A stretch of DNA of 64,000 bases from Flavobacterium marginilacus (GCF_026870155.1 NZ_CP113975.1:3162001-3226000); one strand, 5' to 3'; shown: positions 31,109 through 62,868, counted from the first letter of the stretch. A program made the numbers and translations. Notes: a model not told the origin generated them from the letters alone.

Positions 31109-34512
<3,404 letters not shown>

Positions 34513-48013: not shown

Positions 48014-49027
48014 TTAATTCAATTCTATGATTGCTTTAATAGTATTGTTTTTTGGATCAATCCATTTTTCAAATTCACCAATCATGTCTGTAAAATCAGC
48101 ACGGTGAGTGATGTATTTTTTAGGGTCGATTTTACCTTCTTTCAGGCATTGCATTACATATTCAAAATCTTCGATGGTCGCATTTCGGCTGCTCATCAAA
48201 GTAGATTCTCTTTTATGGAAATCAGGATGACTGAAACTCAGTTCTCCTTTTTGAAGTCCCACCAAAACAAATCGACCGCCATGAGAAATGTAATTGAAAG
48301 CACTGTTCATCACTTTTTGATTTCCGGTCGCATCAATCACCACATTGGCCATATCACCATTGGTCAGTTCTGCTAATTTTGCAGCAACATCATCGTGCAG
48401 CGGGTTTATAGTTTCATCTGCCTGAAGCGCTTCTTTACAAAAATTAAGGCGGTATTCATTGATATCCATAACAATCACTTTAGCCCCGGCAATTTTTGCA
48501 AACTGGATCAATCCTAATCCGATTGGTCCTGCTCCCATTACTAAAACAGTATCGGTTGCTTTTACAGCTGCCCTGCGAACACCGTGTGCTGCAATGGCAA
48601 GCGGTTCTATCAAAGCCAGTTCATCATAATCCAAACCTTGTCCGTGAAGGAGATACTGTTCAGGAACAGTCACATATTCTGCCATTCCGCCATCTATATG
48701 CACACCAAAAACTTTGATATTTGCACAGCAGTTTGTCAAACCGTTTCTGCAGGCAACGCATTTTCCGCAGCTGAAATAAGGAATAAAAGTTACTTTGTCT
48801 CCCGGTTCAAAACCTTTTGCATTTCCTTTTATATATTCTGCAGCAAGTTCATGCCCCAGAATTCTTGGATATTCAAAATAAGGCTGTGTTCCTCCAAAAG
48901 CATGTATATCGGTTCCGCAGACCCCTATTCTTTTAATTTTCAAAAGAACTTCGCCTTCTTTTGGTTCCGGCATTGGTTTCTCTTTCAGCAGAAACTCTTT
49001 CGGTTTTTCGCAAACAATATATTTCAT
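48014..49027 (-). CDS. Zinc-dependent medium-chain alcohol/polyol dehydrogenase (337 aa)
   Basis: Catalytic zinc ligands are Cys37 (GVCGTD), His59 and Glu60 (LGHE). A structural-zinc set is present at Cys87, Cys90, Cys93 and Cys101 (CGKC / CRNGLTNCC). The Rossmann motif is VMGAGPIGLG, followed by VIVMDINEYRL. Domain order and length are typical of sorbitol/threonine-dehydrogenase-like enzymes. It is the third gene downstream of GH105 and is 18 bp upstream of the SDR gene. It could oxidise a polyol, a sugar or a sugar acid in the pathway; an alternative to the SDR for the first oxidation is possible. Confidence 0.82.
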   Translation of the reverse strand: MKYIVCEKPKEFLLKEKPMPEPKEGEVLLKIKRIGVCGTDIHAFGGTQPYFEYPRILGHELAAEYIKGNAKGFEPGDKVTFIPYFSCGKCVACRNGLTNCCANIKVFGVHIDGGMAEYVTVPEQYLLHGQGLDYDELALIEPLAIAAHGVRRAAVKATDTVLVMGAGPIGLGLIQFAKIAGAKVIVMDINEYRLNFCKEALQADETINPLHDDVAAKLAELTNGDMANVVIDATGNQKVMNSAFNYISHGGRFVLVGLQKGELSFSHPDFHKRESTLMSSRNATIEDFEYVMQCLKEGKIDPKKYITHRADFTDMIGEFEKWIDPKNNTIKAIIELN

Positions 49028-49078: not shown

Positions 49079-49933
49079 TTATTTACTATATGCTTTTGCT
49101 ACCTGTCTGCTGGATCCTAAACCTTCCATGCCTAACTCAATAACATCACCGGGCTTGATATAAATTGGATCTGGCTTGATTCCTAATCCAACTCCCGGAG
49201 GCGTTCCTGTACTAATAATATCACCAGGCATTAAAGTCATAAACTGGCTTAGATAATGTACTAAAAATGGAATTTTGAAAACTAAGTTCAATGTATTGCT
49301 ATCCTGGAATTTTTTACCATTTACAGTTAACCACATCGGAATATTATTTACATCGGCAATTTCATCCTGAGTAGCAAGGAATGGCCCAAGAGGCGCAAAC
49401 GTATCGCATCCTTTTCCTTTTGCCCATTGTCCGCCCATTTCTATCTGAAAAGCTCTTTCGCTGTAATCGTTTAATAAAGCATAACCTGCTACATAATCCA
49501 AAGCTTCTGCTTCTTCTACATAACTTGCTTTTTTGCCTACAACAAATGCCAATTCGATTTCCCAGTCTGTTTTTTCACTGTTTTTTGGGATAATCAAATC
49601 ATCATTTGGACCGCATAAAGAAGTCGTTGATTTGAAAAAGATAATTGGTTCTGCTGGAATCGGCGCACCTGTTTCATGACAGTGATCTACATAATTCAAT
49701 CCAATACAGATTATTTTTGAAGGTCTCGCTACTGGAGAACCCAAACGGACATCGGCACTCACTTCTGGCAAAACCGGATTGCTTTCCAATGCTTTTTTTA
49801 ATTTTTCTAAACCGTTTTCATCAAAAAAAGCTTCATTAAAATCTGAAACAATTGAAGATACATCATATCGTTTCTCTCCAATAATAACTCCTGGCTTTTC
49901 TTTTCCTACAGCTCCAAAACGTATTAATTTCAT
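49079..49933 (-). CDS. Fumarylacetoacetate hydrolase-family enzyme (2,4-diketo-3-deoxy-fuconate hydrolase-like, 284 aa)
   Basis: FAH-fold enzymes cleave C-C bonds of diketo acids using a divalent metal. Metal ligands Glu125 and Glu127 (DWEIELAF) and Asp156 (LLNDYSER) are present, with the typical FFKSTTSLCGPND, KGKGCDTFAPLGP and MPGDIISTGTPPGVG blocks. In the oxidative fucose or rhamnose route the last enzyme of this family splits a 2,4-diketo-3-deoxy acid to pyruvate and lactate. Length is standard. It is downstream of the KDF-dehydrogenase-like SDR, so the operon order fits that route. A small region of low complexity AAGTTACTAAG repeats separates it from the upstream gene. Confidence 0.8.
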   Translation of the reverse strand: MKLIRFGAVGKEKPGVIIGEKRYDVSSIVSDFNEAFFDENGLEKLKKALESNPVLPEVSADVRLGSPVARPSKIICIGLNYVDHCHETGAPIPAEPIIFFKSTTSLCGPNDDLIIPKNSEKTDWEIELAFVVGKKASYVEEAEALDYVAGYALLNDYSERAFQIEMGGQWAKGKGCDTFAPLGPFLATQDEIADVNNIPMWLTVNGKKFQDSNTLNLVFKIPFLVHYLSQFMTLMPGDIISTGTPPGVGLGIKPDPIYIKPGDVIELGMEGLGSSRQVAKAYSK

Positions 49934-49950: not shown

Positions 49951-50092
49951 TTACTGAGTTGTTAAGTTACTAAGCTGCTAAGTTTTTCATCTCGGCAAAT
50001 TTAGTAAGTTGTATTTTTTAAGTTCCTGATTTCCTCAAATGCTAAGTATCTTTAATCTTAGGAACTTAGTATCTTAGAAGCTTAGCAGCATC
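49951..50092. repeat. TAAGTTACTAAGCTGCTAAG-type dispersed repeat
   Basis: The spacer holds AAGTTACTGAGTTGTTAAGTTACTAAGCTGCTAAG, then facing copies built on CTTAGGAACTTAGTATCTTAGAAGCTTAGCAGC. Arms can pair into a long imperfect hairpin. No gene is present. Confidence 0.6.
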
Positions 50093-50094
50093 TT

Positions 50095-50859
50095 TTAATT
50101 ATTTAATTTGATAAATCCTCCGTCAATAGGGTAATCTGAACCAGTAATAAAACCTGCTTCATCACTGCACAAATACAGTGCTAAAGCCGCAACTTCATCT
50201 GGTTTGCCCATTCTTCCGATTGGCTGGGATTTTGATAATTTTTCGAAAATTTCAGCTTCTTTTCCCGGATAATTTTTATTGATAAAACCATCAACAAAAG
50301 GCGTGTGAACTCTCGCAGGAGAAATCGAATTACAGCGGATGCCTTCATTGATATAATCTCTCGCAACCGACAGAGTCATAGCCATTACAGCTCCTTTTGC
50401 AGTTGAGTATGCAAAACGGTCAGGTATACCAACCCATGCTGCAATTGAAGCCATATTCAAAATTACACCGCCGCCTGACAGTCTAAATTGCGGAATTGCT
50501 GCGTACAGACAATTATAAACTCCTTTTACATTTACATTCATCACTCGGTCGAAATCGGCTTCTGGTGTCGTATCAACTTTTCCAACGTGCGCAATTCCGG
50601 CATTATTAACCAAAATATTGAAGTTTCCTATTTTTTCAAATGTATCGGTAACTTCTTTTTGATTAGCTACATTACAGGCATAAGAAAATACTTTTCCGCC
50701 CAATTGTTTAATATCATCAACAGCCTCCTGAGCACTTTCGATTGTTAAATCGATAATATGAACCTCGGCTCCCTGTTTAGCAAACAGCGCAGCTATGGCT
50801 CTCCCAATACCGCTGCCTCCTCCTGTTACTACTGCTTTTTTATTTTGTAATGAAAACAT
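50095..50859 (-). CDS. SDR-family dehydrogenase (2-keto-3-deoxy-L-fuconate dehydrogenase-like, 254 aa)
   Basis: Canonical SDR motifs are TGGGSGIGRA (12-21), NNAG (86-89), Ser138 (NMASIA), Tyr151 and Lys155 (YSTAK). The C-terminal CNSISPARVHTPFVDGFI and GFITGSDYPIDGG are typical. Compared with other SDRs the PARVHTPFVD block resembles enzymes that oxidise 2-keto-3-deoxy sugar acids. It is 17 bp downstream of GH105 and upstream of the FAH gene, which matches the order of the oxidative 6-deoxy-sugar pathway. The exact substrate is inferred. Confidence 0.78.
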   Translation of the reverse strand: MFSLQNKKAVVTGGGSGIGRAIAALFAKQGAEVHIIDLTIESAQEAVDDIKQLGGKVFSYACNVANQKEVTDTFEKIGNFNILVNNAGIAHVGKVDTTPEADFDRVMNVNVKGVYNCLYAAIPQFRLSGGGVILNMASIAAWVGIPDRFAYSTAKGAVMAMTLSVARDYINEGIRCNSISPARVHTPFVDGFINKNYPGKEAEIFEKLSKSQPIGRMGKPDEVAALALYLCSDEAGFITGSDYPIDGGFIKLNN

Positions 50860-50876
50860 ATATTCTAATTTTAATT

Positions 50877-52118
50877 TTATCTATTCAATTCTAAAGCTGC
50901 CAAAATAAAAGGCCCTGTCGCTTTCGGGTCATTATTTTTCTTTCTTTCGTTAATATAATATTCGTACGAACCATCGCGATAAGGATTACCGCCCAAACCT
51001 GCTACAGCACAGGCATTAGTCAATTCTACTTCGCCTTTAGAGTCAATTACTATCGATTGTGAAGTCAATCCGTCAAATGCTTTATTGGCAAAGTTTTTGA
51101 ATTTTTTAGGCAGGTAGCCTTTGTTCACTCCTTTTGCAAAAGCATAAGCAAACATAGCAGTACCCGAAGATTCTAAATAATTACCTTTTCTGCTTCCCAT
51201 GTCAGTTACCTGATACCACATACCCGATTTTTTGTCCTGAAATTTAATCAATGCATTTGAAACAGCATTTAAATAAGCAATTAATTCTTTTCTTTTCGGA
51301 TGTTCTTTGGGAAAATAATCCAATACATCAACCAAAGCCATCACATACCAGCCAATAGATCTCGACCAAAAATTTGGTGAAACACCAGTCTCTTTATTCG
51401 CCCATGGCATGGCTTTGCTTTCGTCCCAGGCATGGTAAAGCAATCCTGTTTTTTTATCAGTGGCATGCATTTGGATTAATTCAAATTGTTTGGCTATGTC
51501 GTCAAAGAATTTTCCATTTTCAAAAACTGCTGTATACTGAGCATAAAATGGTTCTCCCATATATAATCCATCCAGCCACATTTGGTTTGGATATATTTTT
51601 TTATGCCAAAATCCCCCGCTTGCTGTTCTTGGCTGATTTTCTAACTGCCTGCGTAAAGTCTGCATTGCGGTTAAATATCGCTTATCGTTTGTCTTCTTAT
51701 ACAAATCAAACAGTAATCTTCCTGCAGTTATATTATCAATATTATAAGTATCCGGCTCATACGTTTTGATATTTCCTTCTCCATCAATTAAATCATCTGC
51801 ATAACCTTTTATATAGGCAGCATATTTTGGTTCCTTTTTCTGCTTATTCAATTCTTCAAAAGCATACAAAACCAATCCGTGTACGTAATCCCAATGCGGA
51901 TTTTTTGCATCGTCTATCATATAGGACTGCGGATGGCGGTTCATCAGTGTCAAAGCCATTCTTTCAGACCATTTCAGTTTATCCGAAATTTCATTTTTCT
52001 GTTTTCCTGAAACTGCTTCGGTTTCGGTTTTTTGAGCCATAATGTGGCCGCTGAACACTAACAAAGCAAGCATCACACTTGTCCTTACAAAAAAAATGAT
52101 TTTTAATGAATTATTCAT
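50877..52118 (-). CDS. GH105-family unsaturated rhamnogalacturonyl hydrolase (413 aa)
   Basis: GH105 enzymes remove the unsaturated galacturonyl residue left at the non-reducing end by pectate or rhamnogalacturonan lyases. The catalytic Asp183 lies in MWLDGLYMGEPF, the counterpart of the YteR aspartate. YHAWDES (228-234) and WSRSIGWYVMALVDVL (251-) are typical (alpha/alpha)6-barrel motifs. A signal peptide (about 12-28, ends IMAQ) suggests a periplasmic enzyme. It is the first gene of the minus-strand operon and is followed after 17 bp by the SDR gene, so it links polymer breakdown to the oxidative catabolic genes. Confidence 0.9.
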   Translation of the reverse strand: MNNSLKIIFFVRTSVMLALLVFSGHIMAQKTETEAVSGKQKNEISDKLKWSERMALTLMNRHPQSYMIDDAKNPHWDYVHGLVLYAFEELNKQKKEPKYAAYIKGYADDLIDGEGNIKTYEPDTYNIDNITAGRLLFDLYKKTNDKRYLTAMQTLRRQLENQPRTASGGFWHKKIYPNQMWLDGLYMGEPFYAQYTAVFENGKFFDDIAKQFELIQMHATDKKTGLLYHAWDESKAMPWANKETGVSPNFWSRSIGWYVMALVDVLDYFPKEHPKRKELIAYLNAVSNALIKFQDKKSGMWYQVTDMGSRKGNYLESSGTAMFAYAFAKGVNKGYLPKKFKNFANKAFDGLTSQSIVIDSKGEVELTNACAVAGLGGNPYRDGSYEYYINERKKNNDPKATGPFILAALELNR

Positions 52119-52312: not shown

Positions 52313-53452
52313 ATGACAAAACTTAAAGGCATAACTTGGAATCATACAAGAGGACTTTTACCTATGGTTGCCACAGCGCAGCGTTTTACAGAACTTAATC
52401 CTGATATTGAAATCAGCTGGGAAAAAAGAAGCTTACAGGAATTTGCAGATGCTTCTATTGAAGATTTAGCAAAAAGATTTGATTTGTTAGTTATCGACCA
52501 TCCCTGGACAGGTTTTGGAGCACATACCAATGCGATTCTTCCTTTGTCCGACTATCTTTCTCCAGAATATATAAAAGACCAGGAAATCAATACTGTAGGA
52601 CGTTCTTACGGAAGTTACATTTTTAGCAATAAATTATGGGCACTGCCAATTGACGCTGCCACTCCGGTAGCTGCAGCACGATTGGATATTTTAGAAAAAA
52701 ACGGTTTAAATGTACCGCAGACATATGATGAGTTATTGGCTCTGGCCAAAAAAGGACTGATTGCTTTTGCAGGAATTCCGGTAGATTCGTTAATGACGTT
52801 CTATTCTTTTTGCTGCAGTCTGGGTGAAGCCCCTTTTCAGTCGCAGGAAAAAGTAATTTCGATTGAAACAGGAAAAAAAGCCCTGCAGATGCATCGCGAA
52901 CTGGCACAGTTAATGGATCCGGCAAACTTTAACCGAAACCCGATTCAGGTGTATGAAGCAATGGTCAACTCCGATGAAATTGCCTACTGCCCTTTTGCTT
53001 ACGGCTATTCTAATTATTCAAGAATTGGTTACAGCAAAAACTTACTTCATTTTTATGATTTAGTAAAATTGAATGACCAGCCAATGATTAGCTCTTTAGG
53101 CGGAACAGGACTCGCAGTTTCTTCTTTCAGCAAACACATTCCTGAAGCGGTAAAATATGCAGAATTCACAGGATCATCACACGTACAGCAGAATATTTTT
53201 GCAGACAATGGCGGACAGCCGGGACATCTTCAGGCTTGGAAAAATGACCGAATCAATGGGATAACTCACGATTATTTCAAAAATACACTGCCTGCTTTGG
53301 AAAGAGCTTTTTTAAGACCTAGATATTCGGGACACATGTATTTTCAGGATCATGCGGGCGATGTGGTTCGTGATTATCTGATTAACGGCGGTGATGAAGA
53401 AGCCGTTTTAGCAGCAATGGATGCGCTTTACATCAAGTCATTAAACTTATAA
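52313..53452 (+). CDS. Solute-binding-protein-like protein without a signal peptide (379 aa)
   Basis: The fold resembles family 1 extracellular solute-binding proteins of ABC sugar importers: MVATAQRFTELNPDIEISWEKRS, then RFDLLVIDHPWTGFG, ILPLSDYLSPEYI, NKLWALPIDAATPVAAARLDIL and FTGSSHVQQNIF. No hydrophobic leader or lipobox precedes the domain (MTKLKGITWNHTRG), so it would stay in the cytoplasm, where a conventional binding protein has no transport role. No ABC permease or ATPase is in the window. It is the first gene of the operon and lies 4 bp upstream of a CoA transferase. It may be a substrate-binding partner, a sensor or a repurposed enzyme; function is unknown. Confidence 0.7.
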   Translation: MTKLKGITWNHTRGLLPMVATAQRFTELNPDIEISWEKRSLQEFADASIEDLAKRFDLLVIDHPWTGFGAHTNAILPLSDYLSPEYIKDQEINTVGRSYGSYIFSNKLWALPIDAATPVAAARLDILEKNGLNVPQTYDELLALAKKGLIAFAGIPVDSLMTFYSFCCSLGEAPFQSQEKVISIETGKKALQMHRELAQLMDPANFNRNPIQVYEAMVNSDEIAYCPFAYGYSNYSRIGYSKNLLHFYDLVKLNDQPMISSLGGTGLAVSSFSKHIPEAVKYAEFTGSSHVQQNIFADNGGQPGHLQAWKNDRINGITHDYFKNTLPALERAFLRPRYSGHMYFQDHAGDVVRDYLINGGDEEAVLAAMDALYIKSLNL

Positions 53453-53456
53453 CAGC

Positions 53457-54599
53457 ATGAGACCATTAGAAGGATTAGTTGTATTGGAATTCTGCCAGTT
53501 TTTGGCAGGGCCTTCTGCGGGCTTAAAATTGGCTGATTTAGGCGCGAGAATTATTAAAATCGAGCGTCCGGTAAAAGGCGAAGCTTGCCGTCAGCTGAGC
53601 ATTAAAGACCTTTTTGTGGATGACAGCAGTCTGCTTTTTCATACCATCAATAGAAACAAAGAATCATTTGCAGCCGACCTTAAAAACCCTGAAGATTTAA
53701 TTTTAGTAAAAAAACTAATCGCCAAAGCCGATATTATGACCCATAATTTCAGGCCGGGTGTTATGGATAAAATAGGTTTAACTTTTGCGGAAGCGTTAAC
53801 CATTAATCCAAAAATAATTTATGGAACAATAACAGGTTACGGAGACAAAGGTCCATGGGCAAATAAACCGGGACAGGATTTACTGCTGCAGTCACTTTCC
53901 GGACTGAGCTGGTTAAGCGGCCGAAAAAGCCAAGGGCCTGTTCCATTTGGTCTCGCTGTCGCCGATTTAATGTGCGGCAATCATTTTGTTCAGGGTATTT
54001 TGGCCGCATTACTCAAAAGAGCCAAAACCGGAAAAGGAGTTTTAGTAGAAGTCAGCCTGCTGGAATCGATTTTAGATGTTCAGTTTGAAGCCATTACTTC
54101 CTACTTAAATGACGGAGGACAGCAGCCGCAAAGAGGCGATGTTAAAGGAAGTGCCCACGCCTTTCTAAGTGCGCCTTATGGAGTTTATCCCACTCAGGAA
54201 GGATACATTTCATTGGCCATGGGTGATTTACTTTTCATTGGAAATACGTTAGGAATCGATTTAAATAAATATTCCGATAAACATTTATGGTTCTCACAAA
54301 GAGATGAAATCAGAGAAATAATAACTGAAAAACTGCTGACTCAAACAGCTGATTATTGGCTGAATTTACTTCAAAAAGAAGGAATCTGGTGTGGCAAAGT
54401 TCTCAATTACGAAGAGTTGGACAGCCAGCCTTTTGTGAAAGAATTACAATTAAAACAAACGGTTAAAAATGCTGCTGGAGAAACCTTGATTACTACCAGA
54501 AGCCCTATTCAATTGGATGGAGAAATTTTGGCCAGCCCGAAAGCAGCACCAAAAGTGGGTGAAGACAATACTGTGATACATGAAGAGTTTATTCGTTGA
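53457..54599 (+). CDS. Class III (CaiB/BaiF-type) CoA transferase (380 aa)
   Basis: Class III transferases move CoA between organic acids using an aspartyl intermediate. The N-terminus MRPLEGLVVLEFCQFLAGPSAGLKLADLGARIIKIERP is a textbook family motif. Asp170 in GLAVADLMCG fits the catalytic Asp of formyl-CoA transferase (Asp169). HNFRPGVMDKIGL, YGTITGYGDKGPW and PGQDLLLQSLSGLSWLSG are further family blocks. Full length is normal. A close paralogue lies next in the operon. It probably activates a carboxylic acid to a CoA thioester; donor and acceptor cannot be told from sequence. Confidence 0.85.
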   Translation: MRPLEGLVVLEFCQFLAGPSAGLKLADLGARIIKIERPVKGEACRQLSIKDLFVDDSSLLFHTINRNKESFAADLKNPEDLILVKKLIAKADIMTHNFRPGVMDKIGLTFAEALTINPKIIYGTITGYGDKGPWANKPGQDLLLQSLSGLSWLSGRKSQGPVPFGLAVADLMCGNHFVQGILAALLKRAKTGKGVLVEVSLLESILDVQFEAITSYLNDGGQQPQRGDVKGSAHAFLSAPYGVYPTQEGYISLAMGDLLFIGNTLGIDLNKYSDKHLWFSQRDEIREIITEKLLTQTADYWLNLLQKEGIWCGKVLNYEELDSQPFVKELQLKQTVKNAAGETLITTRSPIQLDGEILASPKAAPKVGEDNTVIHEEFIR

Positions 54600-54601
54600 A
54601 C

Positions 54602-54649
54602 CGTTTATTTGTTTAATCGTTTTATCACAAACAGTTAAACAAATAAACG
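54602..54649. repeat. 15-bp perfect inverted repeat (CGTTTATTTGTTTAA)
   Basis: Arms at 54602-54616 and 54635-54649 are exact complements with 18 bases between. Further AACGATTAAAC copies follow up to 54682. This fills the 88-bp gap between the two CoA transferase genes and could modulate expression of the downstream genes. Confidence 0.7.
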
Positions 54650-54687
54650 ATTAAACAGTTAAACAATCAAAAACGATTAAACAAAAA

Positions 54688-55824
54688 ATGAAACCATTAG
54701 AAGATTATTTAATAGTAGATTTCAGCCAGTTTCTTTCCGGGCCTTCAGCGAGTTTACGATTGGCCGATCTGGGTGCTCGTGTGATAAAAATTGAAAAACC
54801 GGGAACTGGAGACATCTGCAGAACCTTATATACTTCTGACTTGATTATGAATGGGGAATCTTCCGTTTTTCATACCATCAACAGAAACAAAGAATCATTT
54901 GCCATTGATTTCAAAGAGCCGAATGAACTTGAAAAATTAAAAAAACTGCTAGCCAAAGCTGATGTTGTTATGCACAATTTCAGACCCGGCGTGATGGAAC
55001 GTGTTGGCTTGAGTTATGACGATGTTACAGCAATCAATCCCAATATTATCTATGCCGAAATTTCGGGCTATGGTACTAAATCGGATTTAAAAGATTTACC
55101 GGGACAGGATTTATTACTGCAATCATTGACTGCATTAACCTGGCTGAGCGGTAATCAGGAAGACGGCCCGGTACCAATGGGATTGTCAATAGTGGATATG
55201 CTTGCAGGAGCGCATTTGGCACAAGGAATTTTGGCCTCTTTATATAGAAAAGCAACTCACGGTATCGGAGCAAAAGTTCAGGTAAGCATGCTGGAATCTG
55301 CTTTTGATTTTCAGTTTGAAACCATTACGACATATTTTAACGACGGCGGTGAACTGCCTGTTCGTACAAAATCCAACAATGCACACGCATATCTGGGTGC
55401 GCCCTACGGAATTTACAAAACACAAAATGGTTATTTAGCTTTGGCAATGGGATCAATCCCAGTTTTGGCCTCTCTTTTAAAATGTGATGACTTGTTACAG
55501 TTCTCTGAAAACAAATTTGGATTACGTGACGAAATCAAAAACATACTCGCCACGCATTTACAAACACAGGAAACTCAGTTTTGGCTGGATATTTTAGAAC
55601 CAGCAGATATTTGGTGTGCCAAAGTACTGAACTACAAACAGCTTTTTGCTGAAGAAGGATTCCGCGTTTTAAATTTCACGCAGAAAGTCGAAATGACAGA
55701 CAGCTATACTTATAAAACAACCCGATGCCCAATTAAAATTGATGGAGAAATTTTCACATCAGTTAAAGGTTCCCCAAAATTAGGACAGGATAACGAACGG
55801 ATTATTAAAGAATTTATAGCTTAA
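54688..55824 (+). CDS. Second class III CoA transferase, paralogue (378 aa)
   Basis: It aligns with the preceding gene throughout: MKPLEDYLIVDFSQFLSGPSASLRLADLGARVIKIEKP, FHTINRNKESFAIDF, HNFRPGVMERVGL, YGTKSD, PGQDLLLQSLTALTWLSG and Asp170 in GLSIVDMLAG. The FHTINRNKESFA block is the same in both copies, so this is a tandem duplication. Divergence elsewhere hints at different specificity or an obligate heteromer. It is preceded by the repeat-filled gap and followed after 2 bp by a second solute-binding-like gene, a mirror of the first pair. Confidence 0.85.
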   Translation: MKPLEDYLIVDFSQFLSGPSASLRLADLGARVIKIEKPGTGDICRTLYTSDLIMNGESSVFHTINRNKESFAIDFKEPNELEKLKKLLAKADVVMHNFRPGVMERVGLSYDDVTAINPNIIYAEISGYGTKSDLKDLPGQDLLLQSLTALTWLSGNQEDGPVPMGLSIVDMLAGAHLAQGILASLYRKATHGIGAKVQVSMLESAFDFQFETITTYFNDGGELPVRTKSNNAHAYLGAPYGIYKTQNGYLALAMGSIPVLASLLKCDDLLQFSENKFGLRDEIKNILATHLQTQETQFWLDILEPADIWCAKVLNYKQLFAEEGFRVLNFTQKVEMTDSYTYKTTRCPIKIDGEIFTSVKGSPKLGQDNERIIKEFIA

Positions 55825-55826
55825 TA

Positions 55827-57050
55827 ATGGAAAAGTTAAGAATCGCTGTCAGGAAATTTGATCCTTTTGAAAGTACATTGCAAAAACTGTGGGATTTGTT
55901 CTGTATCGAAAATAATATTGAAATGGAAGCTGAAATGATTCCGTTAGAATTACATGATTTATATACCGAAACAATCAGCAAAAAGGGACTAAAAAAAGGA
56001 ACTTGGGATATTGCTCATCTTAACACAGACTGGATTTTTGATGCTGTCAATGAAAAAGCAGTTCTGGATTTAAATCCATTAATTGCCCAAAATGCACCGC
56101 AGAATTATCCAGAAGGCTGGCATCAGTCGCTGTTACATTTACAGCAGATCAATGACAGAACTTATGGACTTCCTTTTCATGACGGTCCGGAATGTCTGAT
56201 TTTTAGAAAAGATTTATTTGAAAATACAATCGAAAAAGAAAAATTCAAAAAACAGTACGGTTACGAGTTAAACCCTCCCTGCACTTGGGAACAATTCAGC
56301 CAGATTGCCGAGTTTTTCAACCGTCCTGAGCAGAATTTATACGGAAGTGTGTTTGCCAATTTTCCTGATGGGCATAATATGGTATTCGATTTCTGCCTGC
56401 AGTTATGGACACGCGGAGGTTCTTTACTGAATGCACAAAACCAAATCGACATCCAACGTCCTGAAGCCATCGAAGCTTTGGATTTTTACAGAAAAATAAT
56501 CAATAACCCCAAAGCCGTTCATCCAAAAACAAAAAAATTTGGTTCGGTAGAAGCTGGTTTGGCTTTCGCCAAAGGAGAAGCAGCAATGTCTATTAATTGG
56601 TTTGGATTTGCCTCAATGTGCGAAGTAATTGAAGAATCAAACGTGAAAGGGAAAGTAGATATTACCGAATTACCACACAATTCAAATCACAAAACAGCTT
56701 CTTTGAATGTATATTGGCTGTATACAATTGGTTCAGGAAGCAGACACCAAAAACTGGCGTACGATTTTCTGCGGTTTGCTACTAGCCCCGAAAGTGATAA
56801 ATTACTGACCAATGAAGGCGGAATCGGATGCCGAAAATCAACCTGGAATGATTCTGAAATCAATACCACAATTCCGTTTTATCATAAATTAGAAATGCTT
56901 CACGAAAATGCTTTAACGTTACCGCAGACACCGATTTGGCCCAAAGTAGCCGAATTGATTGACCAAATGGTACTCAAGGCTATTGACAGCAGTGTTTCAT
57001 CAGAACAACTTTTAAAAGACACTCAAAAATCAATCCAAAAATTATACTAA
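55827..57050 (+). CDS. Second solute-binding-protein-like protein without a signal peptide (407 aa)
   Basis: It resembles family 1 solute-binding proteins (KGTWDIAHLNTDWIFDAV, VLDLNPLI, TYGLPFHDGPECLIFRKDLFE, ALDFYRKIINNPKAVHP, FAKGEAAMSINWFGFASM, SRHQKLAYDFLRFATSPES). It lacks any leader (MEKLRIAVRKFDPFES), so it is predicted cytoplasmic, like the protein at 52313-53452. The AFxKGEAAM-type segment is the usual ligand-site strand of such proteins. Gaps of 2 bp on each side show strong coupling with the CoA transferase and the oxidoreductase. No membrane partner is nearby. Function unknown. Confidence 0.7.
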   Translation: MEKLRIAVRKFDPFESTLQKLWDLFCIENNIEMEAEMIPLELHDLYTETISKKGLKKGTWDIAHLNTDWIFDAVNEKAVLDLNPLIAQNAPQNYPEGWHQSLLHLQQINDRTYGLPFHDGPECLIFRKDLFENTIEKEKFKKQYGYELNPPCTWEQFSQIAEFFNRPEQNLYGSVFANFPDGHNMVFDFCLQLWTRGGSLLNAQNQIDIQRPEAIEALDFYRKIINNPKAVHPKTKKFGSVEAGLAFAKGEAAMSINWFGFASMCEVIEESNVKGKVDITELPHNSNHKTASLNVYWLYTIGSGSRHQKLAYDFLRFATSPESDKLLTNEGGIGCRKSTWNDSEINTTIPFYHKLEMLHENALTLPQTPIWPKVAELIDQMVLKAIDSSVSSEQLLKDTQKSIQKLY

Positions 57051-57052
57051 TC

Positions 57053-58120
57053 ATGGATATACCTTATAAACCCTCATTGCCAGAAACAGTACAGCCCATA
57101 ATCATTATTGGTGCAAGCGGTATTGTAAAAGATGCCCATCTTCCCGCTTATAAAATGGCCGGCTTTTCGGTTTTCGGAATTACCAACCGGACAATAGCAA
57201 AAGCACATACAATGGCTGAAGAATTCAATATTCCGCATGTTTTTGAAAATGTAGCCGAAGCTGTAAAAAATGCTCCATCAAACGCTGTTTATGACATTAC
57301 TGTCCTTCCTGATCAATACATCGAAATATTAGAACAATTGCCAGATGGTGCCGCCGTGCTGATTCAAAAACCTATGGGAAATGATTTGGCGCAGGCCAAA
57401 GAAATTGTGGCAGTATGCGAAAGAAAAAAATTAGTAGCTGCTATTAATTTTCAGCTGCGGTTTGCTTCTTATATCAGTGCTGCCCGATACATGATCAATC
57501 AGGGAATTATTGGAGATCTGTATGATCTTGAAGTAAAAGTAACGGTGAATACGCCATGGGAATTGTTTCCGCTGATTAAGGAGCATCCAAGATTGGAAAT
57601 TCTTTTTCACAGTGTTCACTATATCGATTGCATTCGCTCTTTTATGGGAAATCCAAAGGGCGTTTATGCCAAAACAGCGAATCATCCTTTGAAGAAATTA
57701 TCCTCCTGCCGTTCTTCGATTATTTTGGATTACGGCGATTCGATGCGTGTGGTGATTAATACCAATCACGATCATCATTTTGGACCAAAACATGAAGAAA
57801 GCTACATCAAATGGGAAGGAACCAAAGGTGCCATTAAGGCTAAGATGGGTTTATTAATGAATTATCCTGATGGTATGCCTGATGAATTCGAGTATGCACT
57901 GCAGACTGAAAAAGGTTCCTATGAATGGCAAAAAAAGGAACTGGAAGGTTCGTGGTTTCCAGAGGCTTTCATTGGCACGATGTCAAATCTGATGCGTTTT
58001 AAAGAAGGTTCTGATGCTGTTCTGCACACCAGCGTGCAGGATGTTTTAGGCACTATGAAAGTGGTAGAGGCCTGTTACATCAGTAATGAAAGAGGAGCGG
58101 TCTCACTAGATAAATTATAA
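57053..58120 (+). CDS. Gfo/Idh/MocA-family oxidoreductase (355 aa)
   Basis: The Rossmann motif is IIIIGASGIVKDAHLPAYKMAGF, followed by IQKPMGN with Lys106-Pro107 in the place of the usual EKP, and the C-terminal domain DLEVKVTVNTPWELFPLI. Proteins of this family reduce or oxidise sugars and sugar derivatives with NAD(P). It is 2 bp downstream of the solute-binding-like gene and would act in the cytoplasm on the same substrate. It is not closely similar by eye to the oxidoreductase at 41316-42380. A 151-bp repeat-containing gap follows. Confidence 0.82.
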   Translation: MDIPYKPSLPETVQPIIIIGASGIVKDAHLPAYKMAGFSVFGITNRTIAKAHTMAEEFNIPHVFENVAEAVKNAPSNAVYDITVLPDQYIEILEQLPDGAAVLIQKPMGNDLAQAKEIVAVCERKKLVAAINFQLRFASYISAARYMINQGIIGDLYDLEVKVTVNTPWELFPLIKEHPRLEILFHSVHYIDCIRSFMGNPKGVYAKTANHPLKKLSSCRSSIILDYGDSMRVVINTNHDHHFGPKHEESYIKWEGTKGAIKAKMGLLMNYPDGMPDEFEYALQTEKGSYEWQKKELEGSWFPEAFIGTMSNLMRFKEGSDAVLHTSVQDVLGTMKVVEACYISNERGAVSLDKL

Positions 58121-58144
58121 AAACAATTTAAAAATTTTAAACAT

Positions 58145-58249
58145 ATAAGTCATATAAGAACCAAGAAATTAAATGAACCTCTTTTTTAACTTATAAATAA
58201 GTTCAAAAAAGATATAGGCTTTAAAATCAAATAAACTTATATGACTTAC
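58145..58249. repeat. Inverted repeat ATAAGTCATATAAG / CTTATATGACTTAC
   Basis: Arms at 58145-58158 and 58236-58249 are complements with one mismatch, bracketing a 77-base AT-rich loop. It is the same family as 46238-46282 and lies inside the operon before the MaoC gene. Confidence 0.65.
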
Positions 58250-58271
58250 ATGGTAAAAAAACTAAAAAAAT

Positions 58272-58712
58272 ATGTATTTCAAATCAACATTTTTTGAAGA
58301 TTATCAGCTTAATGATAAAAGAGTTACATTAGGCAGAACAATTACTGAAACTGATTTTGTGGTTCATGCGGGTCACACAGGTGACTTTTTTCCGCATCAT
58401 ATGGATGAGGAATGGTGTAAAACACAGCCTTTTGGACAGCGGATTGCCCACGGAACAATGGTTTTCAGCATTGGAATCGGACTTACAGCATCAGAAATAA
58501 ATCCTGAAGCTTTTTCTAAAGGATATGAACGTATGCGGTTTGTAAAGCCAGTTCATATTGGCGATACCATTCATTCGGAAATCACAATTTCAGAAAAAGG
58601 AGAAGCCAAAAAGCCTGAAATGGGAACTGTTACCGAGCATGTTGAAATCATCAACCAGCGAGGTGAAGTCGTGCTTGTATGCGACCATCTATTATTAGTA
58701 AAAAAGAAATAA
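58272..58712 (+). CDS. MaoC-like (R)-specific hydratase/dehydratase (146 aa)
   Basis: This is a single hot-dog fold of the MaoC family, which add or remove water at the 2,3-position of acyl-CoA thioesters. The catalytic dyad appears as Asp38 and His43 in [17 protein letters not shown], with [15 protein letters not shown] next, as in family members; the usual Asn two residues after the Asp is Phe40. Length is normal. It lies 24 bp upstream of the permease gene. Together with two CoA transferases it strongly implies a CoA-bound intermediate in this operon. Confidence 0.85.
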
Positions 58713-58736
58713 TTAACTAACCTATAACTATAAATT

Positions 58737-60053
58737 ATGCAAATAACCAACCAAATTGGCGACCAGCACGAAGTGCCAACAGAACAAGGAGTAGAAGAAG
58801 GATCTGGAAAAAAATATCTTTTACCTTTTATTTTAATTACCAGCTTATTTTTCCTTTGGGGAATGGCACACGGTTTTGATGGAATTTTAATTCCGCATTT
58901 GAGAAAAGCCTGTGAGTTAAACAACCGACAATCTACTTTAATAGACACTGCTGTGTTTCTTGCATATTTTATTATGGCAATTCCTGCTGGAATGCTGATT
59001 AAACGTTTTGGATATAAAAACAGTATTATCACTGGATTATTAGTATTTGCTGCTGGCGCTTTTCTATTTATTCCTGCTGCTAATTCTAGAACGTATGAAT
59101 TATTTTTGTTCGCTTTATTTGTGATTGGCTGTGGATTGACGATTTTAGAAACTAGTGCAAATCCGTACGCTGCTATTTTAGGACCTGCTGAATCTTCTTC
59201 AAAAAGATTAAATTTGGCTGCCTCTTTTAACGGATTGGCTGCTATGCTTGGACCTGTATTAGGTTCAATGTTTATATTGTCAGGAAAAAGCTTTACACCT
59301 GTACAAATGAATGCAATGCCTGATACAGCTAAAGCAGCATATTTACTTGAAGAAGCTTCAACCGTAAAAATGCCTTATATGATTCTAGGAAGTATATTGG
59401 TACTTATGGCTATATTATTTTACTTCATGCACTTGCCTTCGATGAAACCTACCCATACCGAAGTTGAAATCAAACCTGGATTTTTCTCTGTTTTAAAATT
59501 TTCGCATTTGAGTTGGGCAGTAGCAGCACAATTCTTCTATGTAGGTGCTCAAGTATGCGTTACCAGTTTTTTTGTTCGAATTGCTGAACAAAGTGCAGGA
59601 TTGGATGAAAAAACAGCGGGTTATTACCTAGGTATTTATGGTTTCTTATTTATGGCAGGACGCTTCATTGGAACTTTCTTTTTGCGTTATGTAAAAGATT
59701 ATATTTTGTTATCTATCTACTGTGTTATCAGCATTATTTTATGCATTGTAGCTATTTACGCAAGCGGTATTGAAGTAATTTATGCTTTAGGCGGATTAGG
59801 TTTTTTCATGTCAATTATGTTCCCGACAATTTTCTCGCTGGGATTAGTTGGCTTGAAATCCAATACCGAAACTGGTTCATCTTGGTTAGTAATGTCCATT
59901 GTCGGCGGGGCAATACTTCCTTACTCTATGGGAACTTTAATCGATATGAAACATGACGATATTCAGGCGGGTTACATTATTCCGCTGGTTTGTTTTGTCA
60001 TTATTCTTTATTTTGGTGTATTTGGACATAAAGTAAAGAACAGTATTTCATAA
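58737..60053 (+). CDS. fucP-like: FucP-family MFS sugar:proton symporter (438 aa)
   Basis: The protein has 12 predicted membrane helices and matches the L-fucose permease family in SLFFLWGMAHGFDGILIP, GFLFMAGRFIGTFF, LETSANPYAAILGP and YPTIFSLG-like FPTIFSLGLVGL. Glu of LETSANP aligns with the essential Glu135 of E. coli FucP, but the position of Asp46 is Gly, with Asp48 one residue earlier in this protein. It is the last gene of the operon, followed by a strong terminator. Inner-membrane uptake of fucose or a related deoxy sugar is likely. Confidence 0.87.
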   Translation: MQITNQIGDQHEVPTEQGVEEGSGKKYLLPFILITSLFFLWGMAHGFDGILIPHLRKACELNNRQSTLIDTAVFLAYFIMAIPAGMLIKRFGYKNSIITGLLVFAAGAFLFIPAANSRTYELFLFALFVIGCGLTILETSANPYAAILGPAESSSKRLNLAASFNGLAAMLGPVLGSMFILSGKSFTPVQMNAMPDTAKAAYLLEEASTVKMPYMILGSILVLMAILFYFMHLPSMKPTHTEVEIKPGFFSVLKFSHLSWAVAAQFFYVGAQVCVTSFFVRIAEQSAGLDEKTAGYYLGIYGFLFMAGRFIGTFFLRYVKDYILLSIYCVISIILCIVAIYASGIEVIYALGGLGFFMSIMFPTIFSLGLVGLKSNTETGSSWLVMSIVGGAILPYSMGTLIDMKHDDIQAGYIIPLVCFVIILYFGVFGHKVKNSIS

Positions 60054-60243: not shown

Positions 60244-62868
60244 ATGAAAATAAACATTCTTTTTAAAATACTATTTGTTAGTATTACCGTCTACGGTACG
60301 TTCAATTGTAATGCGCAGAATCAATATCGCTTTCAAGATTATAATTTAACCTTTGAAGAACGGGTAAATGATTTAGTCTCTCATCTCACTCTTGAAGAAA
60401 AAGTATCACAAATGCTTAACGCCTCCCCTGCTATAGAACGTTTGGGAATACCGGCTTATGACTGGTGGAACGAAACACTGCATGGAGTAGCCCGAACTCC
60501 TTTTAAAGTGACTGTCTATCCGCAGGCCATCGCCATGGCAGCAACATTTGATAAAAATTCATTGTTTACCATGGCCGACTATTCTGCAGCCGAGGGCCGG
60601 GCCATTTACAACAAAGCGGTTGCTTCCGGCCTTACAAATGAGCGGTACTTGGGACTCACCTACTGGACACCAAACATTAATATTTTTCGTGACCCGCGCT
60701 GGGGACGCGGACAGGAAACTTATGGAGAAGATCCATATCTTACTGCCATGCTGGGCGATGCATTTGTACGAGGACTGCAGGGTGATGATCCAAAATATAT
60801 TAAGGCGGCAGCCTGTGCCAAACATTATGCTGTACATAGCGGTCCTGAACCCCTAAGACATGTCTTTGATGTAAATGTAAGTGCCTACGATCTGTGGGAT
60901 ACCTATCTTCCAGCTTTTCAAAAATTAATAACCGAATCTCATGTTGTCGGCGTTATGTGTGCTTACAATGCTTTCAGAACGCAGCCCTGCTGTGCCAGCG
61001 ATATATTGATGACCGATATATTAAGAAACCAGTGGAAATTTGACGGTTACGTAACCTCCGACTGCTGGGCAATCGACGACTTTTTTAAGAATCATAAAAC
61101 ACATCCTGACGCTACATCAGCATCGGCAGATGCTGTATTTCACGGAACAGATATCGATTGTGGTACCGATGCATACAAAGCACTAGTACAGGCCGTAAAA
61201 CAAGGTAAAATTACTGAAGCTCAGATAGACGTTTCGGTTAAACGTTTATTCATGGTGCGTTTCCGTCTAGGAATGTTTGATCCAATTTCAATGGTTAAAT
61301 ACGCACAAACCTCTGATAATGTTCTCGAAAGCAAAGAACACGCTGCACATGCTTTAAAAATGGCACAGCAGTCAATGGTACTGCTAAAGAATGAAAAACA
61401 AACCCTTCCTCTCAGTAAAAAACTGAAAAAAATTGTTGTTCTTGGGCCAAATGCGGATAATGATATAGCCATTTTGGGCAATTACAACGGTACGCCTTCT
61501 ACGCTGAAAACAGTTCTGCAGGGCATAAAAGACAAAGTTGGCACATCTACCGAAGTTGTTTATGAAAAAGCAGTCAGCTTCACCAATAACAATCTTTTGC
61601 AATATCAGGATTTATCCCAGCAGTATTCTTATGAAGGGAAACAGGGATTTAAAGCCGAATATTACAATAACAAAGACCTTGAAGGCACTCCGATAGTAGC
61701 CAGAGAAACCAAAGTAGACAATATCTGGCAGGAAGGCCAAGCGGTAACCGGCACAATAAGAGCCAATAATTTCTCAGCCAGATATACTGCCGATTTTAAA
61801 GCTGAAAAAGACGGTAATATAACTTTTGAACTCCAAGGTGATGAAGGCTTCCGATTTATTGTAAACGGGACAGTTGTTATTGATTCATGGAAAAAAAACC
61901 GCTGGGGAGCAAAAACCTATGAACTTGCAGTAAAAAAAGACTCCCATTATACCTTAGCTGTAGAATACTGGCAGGGCGAAGGAAGCGCGTATATTAAAAT
62001 GAATGCGGGCAGTTATGTTAAAACGGATTATAATCAGCTTGCTGACCGCTTTAAAGATGCTGATGCATTTATTTTTACAGGAGGAATTTCTCCACAGCTT
62101 GAAGGCGAAGAAATGAAAGTAAGCGACCCAGGATTTGACGGCGGAGACCGTACCTCAATACAGCTGCCAACTGTACAGACGGAACTGATGAAAGCCCTAA
62201 AATCAACTGGCAAGCCTGTAATATTTGTCATGATGACTGGCAGTGCGATCGCTGCACCATGGGAGTCCGAAAACATTCCTGCAATTTTAAATGCGTGGTA
62301 TGGAGGTCAGTCAGCTGGAACCGCAGTTGCAGATATTTTATTTGGCGATTATAATCCATCCGGCCGTCTGCCTATCACATTTTACAAAGGAGACAGCGAC
62401 TTGGCATCTTTCAATGACTATAATATGGAAAACCGAACCTATAGATATTTCAAAGGTGTGCCGCAATATGGTTTTGGATTCGGACTGAGCTACACCTCCT
62501 TTAAATACAGCAAATTAGAAATACCTGTTCAAGCTGAAAAAAACAAAAATGTATCAGTATCGGTAACTATTACAAATACTGGCAAATTTTCAGGTGAAGA
62601 AGTAGCACAATTATATGTCCTTGAGCAAGGCAAAAAAATAAAAACCGCTATTAAAGCCCTGAAAGGTTTTGAAAGAGTTTCTCTTAATCCGGGACAAAGC
62701 AAAACAATAACTTTTACTTTAACTCCGCAGGATTTATCGTATGTTACTGCTGAAGGCAAACTACAGCAGCTTAACGGCAAAGTCGAAATTGCTGTAGGCG
62801 GTCATCAGCCTGACGAACATAACCTATCAAGCAGCGGACTAATTAAAAGTGCAGTAACTATTAAATAA
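60244..62868 (+). CDS. GH3 beta-glycosidase with PA14 insertion (874 aa)
   Basis: The nucleophile is Asp273 in GYVTSDCWAIDDF, and Lys193-His194 (CAKHYAVHSG) is the usual sugar-binding pair. YDWWNETLHGVAR and FRDPRWGRGQETYGEDP are typical of the xylosidase/arabinofuranosidase branch of GH3. A PA14 domain sits at about 465-590 (GFKAEYYNNKDLEG ... EYWQGEGSAYIKMN) within the second domain. A C-terminal Fn3-like domain (about 745-860) ends the protein. A signal peptide (1-24) indicates export. It is on its own transcript after the terminator; a 9-bp inverted repeat AAACATCAT/ATGATGTTT (60155-60163, 60194-60202) lies in its upstream spacer. It may be a beta-xylosidase or beta-glucosidase on pectin or hemicellulose. 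Confidence 0.9.
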   Translation: MKINILFKILFVSITVYGTFNCNAQNQYRFQDYNLTFEERVNDLVSHLTLEEKVSQMLNASPAIERLGIPAYDWWNETLHGVARTPFKVTVYPQAIAMAATFDKNSLFTMADYSAAEGRAIYNKAVASGLTNERYLGLTYWTPNINIFRDPRWGRGQETYGEDPYLTAMLGDAFVRGLQGDDPKYIKAAACAKHYAVHSGPEPLRHVFDVNVSAYDLWDTYLPAFQKLITESHVVGVMCAYNAFRTQPCCASDILMTDILRNQWKFDGYVTSDCWAIDDFFKNHKTHPDATSASADAVFHGTDIDCGTDAYKALVQAVKQGKITEAQIDVSVKRLFMVRFRLGMFDPISMVKYAQTSDNVLESKEHAAHALKMAQQSMVLLKNEKQTLPLSKKLKKIVVLGPNADNDIAILGNYNGTPSTLKTVLQGIKDKVGTSTEVVYEKAVSFTNNNLLQYQDLSQQYSYEGKQGFKAEYYNNKDLEGTPIVARETKVDNIWQEGQAVTGTIRANNFSARYTADFKAEKDGNITFELQGDEGFRFIVNGTVVIDSWKKNRWGAKTYELAVKKDSHYTLAVEYWQGEGSAYIKMNAGSYVKTDYNQLADRFKDADAFIFTGGISPQLEGEEMKVSDPGFDGGDRTSIQLPTVQTELMKALKSTGKPVIFVMMTGSAIAAPWESENIPAILNAWYGGQSAGTAVADILFGDYNPSGRLPITFYKGDSDLASFNDYNMENRTYRYFKGVPQYGFGFGLSYTSFKYSKLEIPVQAEKNKNVSVSVTITNTGKFSGEEVAQLYVLEQGKKIKTAIKALKGFERVSLNPGQSKTITFTLTPQDLSYVTAEGKLQQLNGKVEIAVGGHQPDEHNLSSSGLIKSAVTIK

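Follow-up and report, generated by a model that had tools for sequence, protein, structure and literature searches.

What does a bacterium do with an operon that sets solute-binding proteins (SBPs) beside coenzyme A (CoA)-transferases? The question is raised by a 64,000-nucleotide stretch of the Flavobacterium marginilacus genome (GCF_026870155.1, NZ_CP113975.1:3162001-3226000; hereafter the window, in whose numbering its features are given), where seven adjacent genes (52313..60053) encode two SBPs (SBP1 and SBP2), two class III CoA-transferases (CT1 and CT2), a Gfo/Idh/MocA oxidoreductase (GFO), a MaoC-type hydratase (MaoC) and a FucP-type permease (FucP). A preliminary description of this module had proposed an undescribed catabolic system in which a sugar acid is charged with CoA and dehydrated. 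The module is real, widespread and apparently uncharacterised, and it probably provides a CoA-dependent step of 6-deoxy-L-hexose oxidation that feeds FAH, a hydrolase of the 2,4-diketo-3-deoxy-L-rhamnonate/fuconate family.

A conserved seven-gene operon

All seven open reading frames (ORFs) were found on the plus strand at the coordinates claimed for them, and Pfam bears out each family that had been named (SBP_bac_1, CoA_transf_3 twice, SBP_bac_1, GFO_IDH_MocA, MaoC and MFS). The genes are packed as closely as first described, with gaps of 4, 88, 2, 2, 151 and 24 bp, and the two long gaps do contain repeats, both holding A+T-rich inverted repeats. The order in the window is SBP1-CT1-CT2-SBP2-GFO-MaoC-FucP:

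52313..53452, plus strand: SBP1, MBP-like (SBP_bac_1), without signal peptide, probable cytosolic partner of CT1 (Pfam, AlphaFold model)
53457..54599, plus strand: CT1, class III CoA-transferase (PF02515, E 2.6e-91)
54600..54687, no strand: gap of 88 bp with an A+T-rich imperfect inverted repeat
54688..55824, plus strand: CT2, class III CoA-transferase (PF02515, E 1.1e-89)
55827..57050, plus strand: SBP2, SBP_bac_1, without signal peptide, probable partner of CT2 (Pfam)
57053..58120, plus strand: GFO, Gfo/Idh/MocA oxidoreductase (Pfam; no NCBIfam cut-off reached)
58121..58271, no strand: gap of 151 bp with a dispersed A+T-rich repeat
58272..58712, plus strand: MaoC, (R)-hydratase-type enoyl-CoA hydratase (PF01575, E 3.1e-21)
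58737..60053, plus strand: FucP-type 6-deoxyhexose:H+ symporter (TIGR00885, above cut-off)

A scan of named genomes for SBP1 relatives confirmed at least 510 stretches, and gene order was counted in the best 80 named loci. The exact seven-gene order is present in 75 of these (Flavobacterium, Pedobacter, Mucilaginibacter, Hymenobacter and allies). Among the five exceptions, two (L102 and L106) run into a contig end, one (L061) lacks GFO, one (L064) has SBP2 as two ORFs, and one (L071) does contain SBP1, which was missed in the automated order call owing to an overlong CT1 ORF; this last locus was left out of the overlap and residue counts given below. Such conservation of order far exceeds chance, and the operon is real and strongly conserved. 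The absence of GFO from the otherwise intact operon of L061 indicates that GFO is not essential to the module. Among the matches listed, the closest named relative of SBP1 is that of Flavobacterium sp. HJJ (100%), and the scan of close relatives confirmed no viral carriers of the module.

In a sample of 296 Bacteroidota genomes, 16 carry SBP1 and 280 do not. The two CoA-transferases follow SBP1 in 15 of the 16; the exception is G286, where about 60 kb of the same contig separate SBP1 from CT1-CT2-SBP2-MaoC (L029, L260). The MaoC clade was found in 14/16 SBP1-positive genomes versus 0/280 SBP1-negative genomes at comparable score (one 41% match). The two SBP1-positive genomes without it (G107 and G182) have a crotonase-family enoyl-CoA hydratase beside SBP1-CT1-CT2, a call confirmed by Pfam in L028 and made by eye in L030. 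Since two unrelated hydratase families occupy the same slot, hydration or dehydration of a CoA ester is implied. Crotonase-family variants in place of MaoC were seen in L128, L129, L028 and L030, in Bacteroidota and Alphaproteobacteria, together with other sugar enzymes and transporters. The preliminary description had left it to a survey of Bacteroidota to decide whether the seven families occur together or lie scattered in other genomes; they occur together, and both order and co-occurrence support one co-inherited catabolic unit.

CoA-transferases and hydratase

CT1 and CT2 are class III CoA-transferases by sequence. They are the only PF02515 matches in the genome, these matches span 366 model positions (full length), and the two proteins are 51% identical. 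Asp170, which we equate by motif with the catalytic Asp of known class III CoA-transferases, is conserved in 93/93 CT1 and 99/99 CT2 proteins. Neither protein reaches the NCBIfam cut-off of a characterised class III equivalog (carnitine, oxalate, glutarate or mesaconate), the best scores being 220 bits for succinate--glutarate (cut-off 750) and 187 bits for oxalate (cut-off 522). In relatives of MaoC, D38 and P41 are each conserved in 96/96 and H43 in 95/96 proteins, forming the D-x-x-P-x-H pattern that we take to be the MaoC/(R)-hydratase active-site motif; the closest PDB match is 4ffu (213 bits), whose molecule name is 'oxidase'. In the module, MaoC would act as the acyl-CoA dehydratase. 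Dehydration of a CoA-thioester intermediate, as had been proposed, is the best-supported reading of this gene set. GFO is a candidate sugar 1-dehydrogenase or other sugar or sugar-acid dehydrogenase. FucP scores 349.5 bits with TIGR00885 (cut-off 280.4) and 312 with PRK10133, below the cut-off of 427.

Association with the oxidative 6-deoxy-L-hexose route

Beyond the seven genes of the preliminary description, the locus continues into a divergent operon of the L-fucose-type oxidative route (46356-52118, minus strand):

50877..52118, minus strand: GH88/GH105-family unsaturated glycuronyl hydrolase (PF07470; GH105 is the name first given to it)
50095..50859, minus strand: SDR (PRK07231, a general SDR subfamily, 224.8 versus cut-off 215)
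49079..49933, minus strand: FAH, 2,4-diketo-3-deoxy-L-rhamnonate/fuconate hydrolase family (NF053535, 363.5 bits, below cut-off 500)
48014..49027, minus strand: Zn-dependent dehydrogenase, ZnADH (no NCBIfam cut-off reached)
47198..47995, minus strand: L-fucose dehydrogenase, FucDH (NF052481, 350.5 bits, above cut-off 300)
46356..47192, minus strand: L-fucono/rhamnono-lactonase, an amidohydrolase (NF052480, 265.4 bits, below cut-off 400)

The FAH enzyme cleaves 2,4-diketo-3-deoxy-6-deoxyhexonate, the meeting point of the L-fucose and L-rhamnose oxidative routes. The SDR, for which PRK07231 is the sole cut-off reached among the NCBIfam matches listed, is a putative 2-keto-3-deoxy-L-fuconate/rhamnonate 4-dehydrogenase, and an SDR adjoins FAH in most FAH loci examined. 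FAH is present in 13/16 SBP1-positive versus 37/280 SBP1-negative genomes and, within Flavobacterium, in 6/7 versus 1/11; Fisher tests were run on this association, and their p-values are too small because the genomes are related. Where FAH does not lie beside the module, 41 of 49 such named loci were tested (those left out being mostly metagenome bins or loci at contig ends), and all 41 genomes carry FAH elsewhere; among the 41, G305 and G306 repeat G025 and G080 with identical coordinates. Linkage in a single locus (the window and L034), together with this association in trans, suggests that the module probably feeds the FAH route. The one SBP1-negative Flavobacterium genome with FAH (G206, L178) has FucP and GFO divergent from an SDR-FAH-ZnADH-FucDH-lactonase operon, without SBP1, CT1, CT2, SBP2 or MaoC there, and looks like a natural loss of the module.

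The surroundings of the module in other genomes point the same way, with signs of 6-deoxy-L-hexose use that include GH78/GH106, RhaT or FucP, RhaM, fucose dehydrogenase, lactonase and FAH. Neighbours were named by best BLAST hits to a hand-made reference set; for several family names (SusC, RhaD, IclR2, RhaM, uxaB/uxaC and the like), confirmation by a curated model does not extend to every locus. Of 49 Flavobacterium-type loci, 39 have FucDH along with the module and 34 have FAH. Rhamnosidase-family genes occur in 32/38 loci of Pedobacter, Mucilaginibacter, Hymenobacter and allies, GH78 and GH106 being confirmed by Pfam in single examples. Most Pedobacter loci have two operons, one of SDR, FAH, the lactonase and, in many cases, a RhaM-like gene, the other of GFO, the module and FucP; every step is then covered by a candidate, dehydration by the module. 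In L330, an FMN-dependent, probably L-lactate, dehydrogenase follows the FAH operon. G214 has two parallel operons, UxaA-SDR-FAH-lactonase and module-lactonase-RhaT-GFO-MaoC2-SDR-FAH, as if the module had taken the place of UxaA. The neighbours of CT1-CT2-SBP2-MaoC in G286 include GH106 and an aldolase of the DHDPS family, the latter consistent with a 2-keto-3-deoxy acid being cleaved.

On proteobacterial (mostly alphaproteobacterial) plasmids, CaiB-SBP pairs lie near an IclR regulator, an ATP-binding cassette (ABC) transporter and a mandelate-racemase-family enzyme, in regions that also hold RhaM, Gfo, MaoC, SDR and FucD or UxaA, several with an amidohydrolase and FAH. These layouts come from ten of 147 records of one scan and four of 118 of another, one of them unannotated. 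One plasmid of S. meliloti Rm41 carries the SBP1 match and the MaoC match at a distance of about 18 kb, Thalassospira has a smaller version (CaiB, SBP, amidohydrolase, IclR, RhaM, Gfo and MaoC with ABC genes), and in Croceibacterium GH106 directly follows SBP1-CaiB. Taken with the permease, these neighbours support the sugar substrate that had been proposed. The suggestion of an unusual acid from rhamnogalacturonan II (RG-II) found no support, as the neighbours point to L-rhamnose or L-fucose, RG-II machinery not having been systematically searched.

A proposed CoA-dependent dehydration

That the CoA-dependent step is dehydration of a hexonyl-CoA, in the oxidative catabolism of L-rhamnose and/or L-fucose from plant cell walls, is given a little less than an even chance. 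We infer every reaction of the module, as well as the identity of the acid. FucP would import the free sugar, which, after a mutarotase, a 1-dehydrogenase (GFO or fucose dehydrogenase) would convert to the lactone, to be opened by the amidohydrolase to a 6-deoxy-L-hexonate. The SBP1-CT1 and CT2-SBP2 pairs would bind the hexonate (L-rhamnonate or L-fuconate) and transfer CoA to it, and elimination by MaoC, with loss of the C2 proton and the C3 hydroxyl, would give a 2-hydroxy-2-enoyl-CoA, the enol tautomer of a 2-keto-3-deoxy-acyl-CoA. A CoA-transferase would then pass the CoA to the next hexonate in a cycle like that of CaiB/CaiD, with CoA being catalytic, and the free 2-keto-3-deoxy acid would be oxidised at C4 by the SDR, its product being cleaved by FAH to pyruvate and L-lactate. 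Such a carnitine-type cycle would replace the usual sugar-acid dehydratase. The (R)-hydratases carry out syn elimination with loss of the pro-2S hydrogen. From this stereochemistry, elimination by MaoC is predicted to fit a (2R,3R) acid, i.e., L-rhamnonate, and crotonase variants should serve (2S,3S) acids.

If the module dehydrates the acid, its hosts could do without a conventional dehydratase. In the window genome, neither FucD nor a sugar-acid MR/MLE protein (enolase-type fuconate/rhamnonate dehydratase) was found. An enolase-family dehydratase elsewhere in that genome was rejected, as its PF13378 matches were read by eye as a dipeptide epimerase, MenC, enolase and one chance match; an IlvD/EDD dehydratase was rejected likewise, both ILVD_EDD matches being read by eye as IlvD. 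The only UxaA relative adjoins uxaB/uxaC/kdgK-looking genes, as in a galacturonate-type operon. Of 40 FAH loci in module genomes, 33 are without a recognised dehydratase and seven have UxaA; these loci represent 39 genomes (two are from G314; G305 and G306 are not included), and the search covered all of each fetched stretch (9.5 to 15 kb). Among 37 FAH-positive genomes without the module, 17 (tallied by hand over a search distance of 8 kb) are without a recognised dehydratase near FAH and 20 have one, namely nine UxaA (two weak or divergently placed), six FucD and five IlvD-type proteins (one doubtful). In this tally, G119 (counted as lacking one) and G171 (the doubtful IlvD) carry FucD on another contig, and L024 and L283 were dropped because no FAH was recognised there, L283 (G219) being counted as FucD from match positions. 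True FucD (E at most 1e-170) occurs in 1/14 MaoC-bearing SBP1-positive genomes (G286, with the split module) and in one of the two of crotonase type (G182).

Several observations weigh against dehydration of a hexonyl-CoA, or against the link to FAH on which it builds. First, the isomerase route is associated with the module just as FAH is: RhaA occurs in 6/7 SBP1-positive versus 1/11 SBP1-negative Flavobacterium genomes, so that a plant-polysaccharide lifestyle may explain part of the FAH link. RhaA is also present in 13/14 MaoC-bearing SBP1-positive genomes, and rhamnose therefore need not pass through the module. No rhamnosidase-family gene was found in the fetched stretch of any of 48 Flavobacterium-type loci, and in L029 SBP1 lies near apparent rhamnose isomerase, kinase and aldolase genes with no CoA-transferases adjoining. 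Second, L-fuconate (2S,3R) would not fit the derived stereochemistry, dehydratases acting on CoA esters of aldonic acids are, to our knowledge, without precedent, and the proposed reaction leaves the need for SBPs unexplained. Third, conventional dehydratases and the module are found together. G286 holds both MaoC and true FucD, fucose-type UxaA clusters occur in module genomes (L192, L197 and L255-L257, as well as the 7/40), and alphaproteobacterial operons combine CaiB, SBP, Gfo and MaoC with FucD or a UxaA pair, so that MaoC may perform a different step or serve a second substrate there. Conversely, ZnADH-bearing FAH operons occur with neither the module nor a recognised dehydratase nearby (L178, L187 and L189), and the FAH operon of L356, from a module genome, is likewise without a recognised dehydratase; the missing dehydratase is thus weak evidence.

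Strict replacement of FucD by the module, at first supported by the Bacteroidota counts and still the best reading though an uncertain one, is weakened as a proposal, given that both occur in alphaproteobacterial operons, that UxaA serves many FAH operons and that some FAH operons are without any recognised dehydratase, and L-rhamnose as the sole substrate was rejected on the RhaA (13/14) and rhamnosidase (0/48) counts. RhaA and FAH have identical distributions over the 18 Flavobacterium genomes (6/7 SBP1-positive; only G206 among the SBP1-negative), and in this genus the two 6-deoxyhexose routes, isomerase and oxidative, apparently go hand in hand. Complete-looking FucP-SDR-FAH-ZnADH-lactonase-FucDH operons without a recognised dehydratase were seen in L187, L189, L194 and L356, where either another, unrecognised dehydratase acts or a shared one lies elsewhere.

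The co-occurrence with FucD or UxaA leads to a different assignment, which we regard as rather improbable: the CoA ester would belong to the same 6-deoxyhexose route at another step, for instance C2 epimerisation or the processing of a second sugar acid that carries a modification, with the ordinary dehydration left to FucD or UxaA afterwards. The alphaproteobacterial operons, which hold MaoC/CaiB, FucD or UxaA and an extra mandelate-racemase-family enzyme, are consistent with this, as is the inclusion of acyl-CoA racemases (alpha-methylacyl-CoA racemases) in PF02515. However, 33/40 FAH loci of Bacteroidota module genomes have no FucD or UxaA to take over, and a hydratase-family enzyme accompanies SBP1 in 16/16 genomes (14 MaoC, two crotonase type), whereas epimerisation needs none.

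Apparently cytosolic solute-binding proteins

The window SBP1 and SBP2 seem to lack a signal peptide and to be cytosolic, judging from their reading frames. SBP1 has an open frame of 380 codons for a protein of 379 residues, leaving one spare upstream codon, and SBP2 an open frame of 413 residues for a protein of 407, leaving six; with no room upstream of the window SBP1, no signal peptide can precede it. In the SBP1 frames of the 16 genomes, 11 have at most 14 spare upstream codons and the other five 16 to 58. N-terminal hydropathy is 0.67 for SBP1 and 0.42 for SBP2 versus 2.18-2.62 in three window proteins taken as secreted, a crude measure by which 2/8 annotated ABC-transporter SBPs also score below 1.4. 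Hydrophobic first-start extensions occur in 6/103 SBP1 ORFs and are read as start-codon artefacts; the 4/92 'SBP2' with a hydrophobic start (L124, L125, L126 and L130) are ABC-transporter SBPs from alphaproteobacteria and one Roseateles.

The AlphaFold model of SBP1 (mean pLDDT 93) has sugar-binding SBPs as its closest PDB folds, with a TM of about 0.8 to MalE3; SBP2 was assigned to the family from its sequence only. SBP1 thus shares the fold of the sugar-binding proteins of ABC transporters (MalE3, SmoF and others), from which the module SBPs differ in having no signal peptide, in the absence of an ABC permease or ATPase from the set, and in their coupling to CoA-transferases. The absence of ABC permease and ATPase genes holds for the contiguous seven-gene set (75/80 named Bacteroidota loci), the flanks not having been searched for them, and ABC genes found close to alphaproteobacterial modules are accompanied by a separate SBP. 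Twelve SBP1 relatives are 47-86% identical to the window protein (mean column identity 68%), and similarity between SBP1 and SBP2 is remote (about 21%, E 0.064). Where annotation was seen, SBP1 relatives are named only 'extracellular solute-binding protein' or the like.

Reading frames overlap between SBP1 and CT1 in 76/91 loci and between CT2 and SBP2 in 66/87, which suggests two cytosolic SBP:CoA-transferase pairs. Across 18 related loci, r between pairwise distance matrices is 0.91 for SBP1 and CT1 and 0.73 for SBP1 and MaoC, in part through shared ancestry. A role of the SBPs as partners of CT1 and CT2 would fit this arrangement. Compatible with the same CoA chemistry, though unlikely, is that the SBPs are cytosolic ligand sensors or regulators and that CT1, CT2 and MaoC catabolise alone. 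An IclR-type regulator does lie near SBP1 in several loci (by eye in L029 and L030, annotated in L124-L126 and L130), and in G286 the 60 kb between SBP1 and CT1-CT2-SBP2-MaoC would suit a sensor; the frame overlaps and the SBP1-CT1 correlation argue against such a separate role.

Other possible substrates

Since RhaA shows the same within-genus association as FAH, the FAH link could reflect lifestyle, and the module could degrade another carboxylic acid that is freed along with rhamnosides or fucosides, such as an acyl substituent or an aglycone. A CoA-transferase with a hydratase is a common pattern in organic-acid catabolism, and rhamnosidase-family genes surround the module in the 32/38 Sphingobacteria/Hymenobacter loci. 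We nevertheless consider this improbable, and slightly more so than a sensor role for the SBPs: the operon has FucP or RhaT as its transporter, the fold of SBP1 is of the sugar-binding type, FAH is found with the module even where the two are not linked, and the conserved seven-gene set contains no thiolase or acyl-CoA dehydrogenase. That the module handles a CoA ester of the common end product, L-lactate or L-lactaldehyde, is highly unlikely and was set low on hydratase chemistry, for despite an aldehyde dehydrogenase in L028/L030, a D-lactate dehydrogenase in Croceibacterium and RhaA/RhaB/aldolase genes near the lone SBP1 of L029 (by eye), MaoC and crotonase act on 3-hydroxyacyl-CoA and not on 2-hydroxyacyl-CoA such as lactoyl-CoA, the FMN-dependent dehydrogenase after the FAH operon in L330 is probably already there for L-lactate, and sugar-binding SBPs would serve no purpose.

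Relation to described systems

Dehydration of a hexonyl-CoA, the reading preferred here, has its nearest analogies in three systems. In the CaiB/CaiD carnitine cycle of Escherichia coli, a class III CoA-transferase likewise moves CoA from product to substrate and a hydratase dehydrates a 3-hydroxyacyl-CoA; it differs in its substrate (carnitine), its crotonase-type hydratase, its single CoA-transferase and its lack of an SBP, and CT1 and CT2 score 73.4 and 75.6 bits with the L-carnitine CoA-transferase model (cut-off 413). The oxidative (non-phosphorylative) L-fucose and L-rhamnose pathways share FucDH and FucP and, by family, lactonase, SDR and FAH with the window and yield pyruvate and L-lactate, but dehydration there normally takes place on the free acid without CoA; in the Bacteroidota FAH loci examined, the dehydratases are of FucD, UxaA and perhaps IlvD type. 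In Haloarcula hispanica, succinyl-CoA:mesaconate CoA-transferase and mesaconyl-CoA hydratase function in acetate assimilation, which places a class III CoA-transferase and an (R)-specific hydratase, formerly of the MaoC family, in one pathway (PMC5592240). This is the closest pair of class III CoA-transferase and (R)-hydratase; it differs in acting on mesaconate, and CT1 and CT2 score 151 and 161 bits against the corresponding cut-off of 700.

In Rhodobacteriaceae bin08, six enzyme genes whose function is unclear lie with a transporter and a RhaM mutarotase in an unexplained rhamnose locus, for which the authors propose a novel rhamnose pathway, with orthologous loci in other Rhodobacteriaceae (PMC5507952, 2017). 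This locus, whose six genes are not named in the text, may be the alphaproteobacterial form of the module. The main text of PMC3870299 has no occurrence of CoA, COG1804 or MaoC. As the preliminary description had supposed, no described pathway with this gene set was found in the open-access literature, which leaves its absence from print unproven.

Dehydration of sugar acids is normally the work of one enzyme on the free acid, and a CoA-dependent version, if true, would be a new chemical logic. It would also give a function to a large SBP1 family (at least 510 stretches), whose hosts include common Bacteroidota of soil and plants as well as nitrogen-fixing symbionts, and cytosolic SBPs as enzyme partners would, if true, be new biology. 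More tentative is a general family in Bacteroidota and Alphaproteobacteria in which polyhydroxy sugar acids would be activated in a self-renewing CoA cycle, with cytosolic SBPs as delivery subunits of the CoA-transferases and with MaoC and crotonase versions for opposite C3 configurations; we think it possible but doubtful.

Further features of the locus

Downstream of FucP and beyond the oxidative operon, the window contains the following genes, of which those at 31109-45017 (minus strand) form a SusC-type/alpha-rhamnosidase-like/GH141 block that the preliminary description did not include:

60244..62868, plus strand: GH3 glycosidase with PA14 (Pfam)
45270..46211, plus strand: AraC-family regulator (Pfam)
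42513..45017, minus strand: GH141-type protein with a C-terminal L-rhamnose mutarotase (rhaM) domain and a hydrophobic N-terminus (PF21231, PF05336)
37557..39737, minus strand: alpha-L-rhamnosidase-like protein, about 13 kb from the module (PF21209, PF17389)
31109..34417, minus strand: protein taken as a SusC-type transporter (family call by eye)

Relatives of the alpha-rhamnosidase-like protein occur in 19/38 Sphingobacteria/Hymenobacter module loci and relatives of the SusC-type gene in 35/38. GH141 lies in the same window as the module here, and loci of Sphingobacteria and alphaproteobacteria show rhamnosidases or ABC transporters instead. The fusion of a mutarotase, an enzyme acting on sugar anomers, to a glycosidase in the 42513-45017 protein seems unusual.

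The A+T-rich 18-mer in the gap between GFO and MaoC is a dispersed repeat with eight exact and four one-mismatch copies in the genome, the reversed-pattern control giving none. It occurs, along with partial inverted copies, in two intergenic gaps of the window, 58121-58271 and 46228-46285.

Additional genes adjoin the module in other genomes. In the Mucilaginibacter locus L087, the module is directly followed by genes (17662-20383 of that locus) that Pfam assigns to a RuBisCO-like protein and to a sugar-acid kinase of the SBD_N/NBD_C (DUF1537) type; L118 and L119 hold ORFs of similar size. In five Flavobacterium loci (L047, L052, L053, L058 and L065), a protein of 532-540 residues and a DHDPS-family-like protein precede the module; Pfam, applied to L053 only, gave no match for the first and DHDPS for the second.

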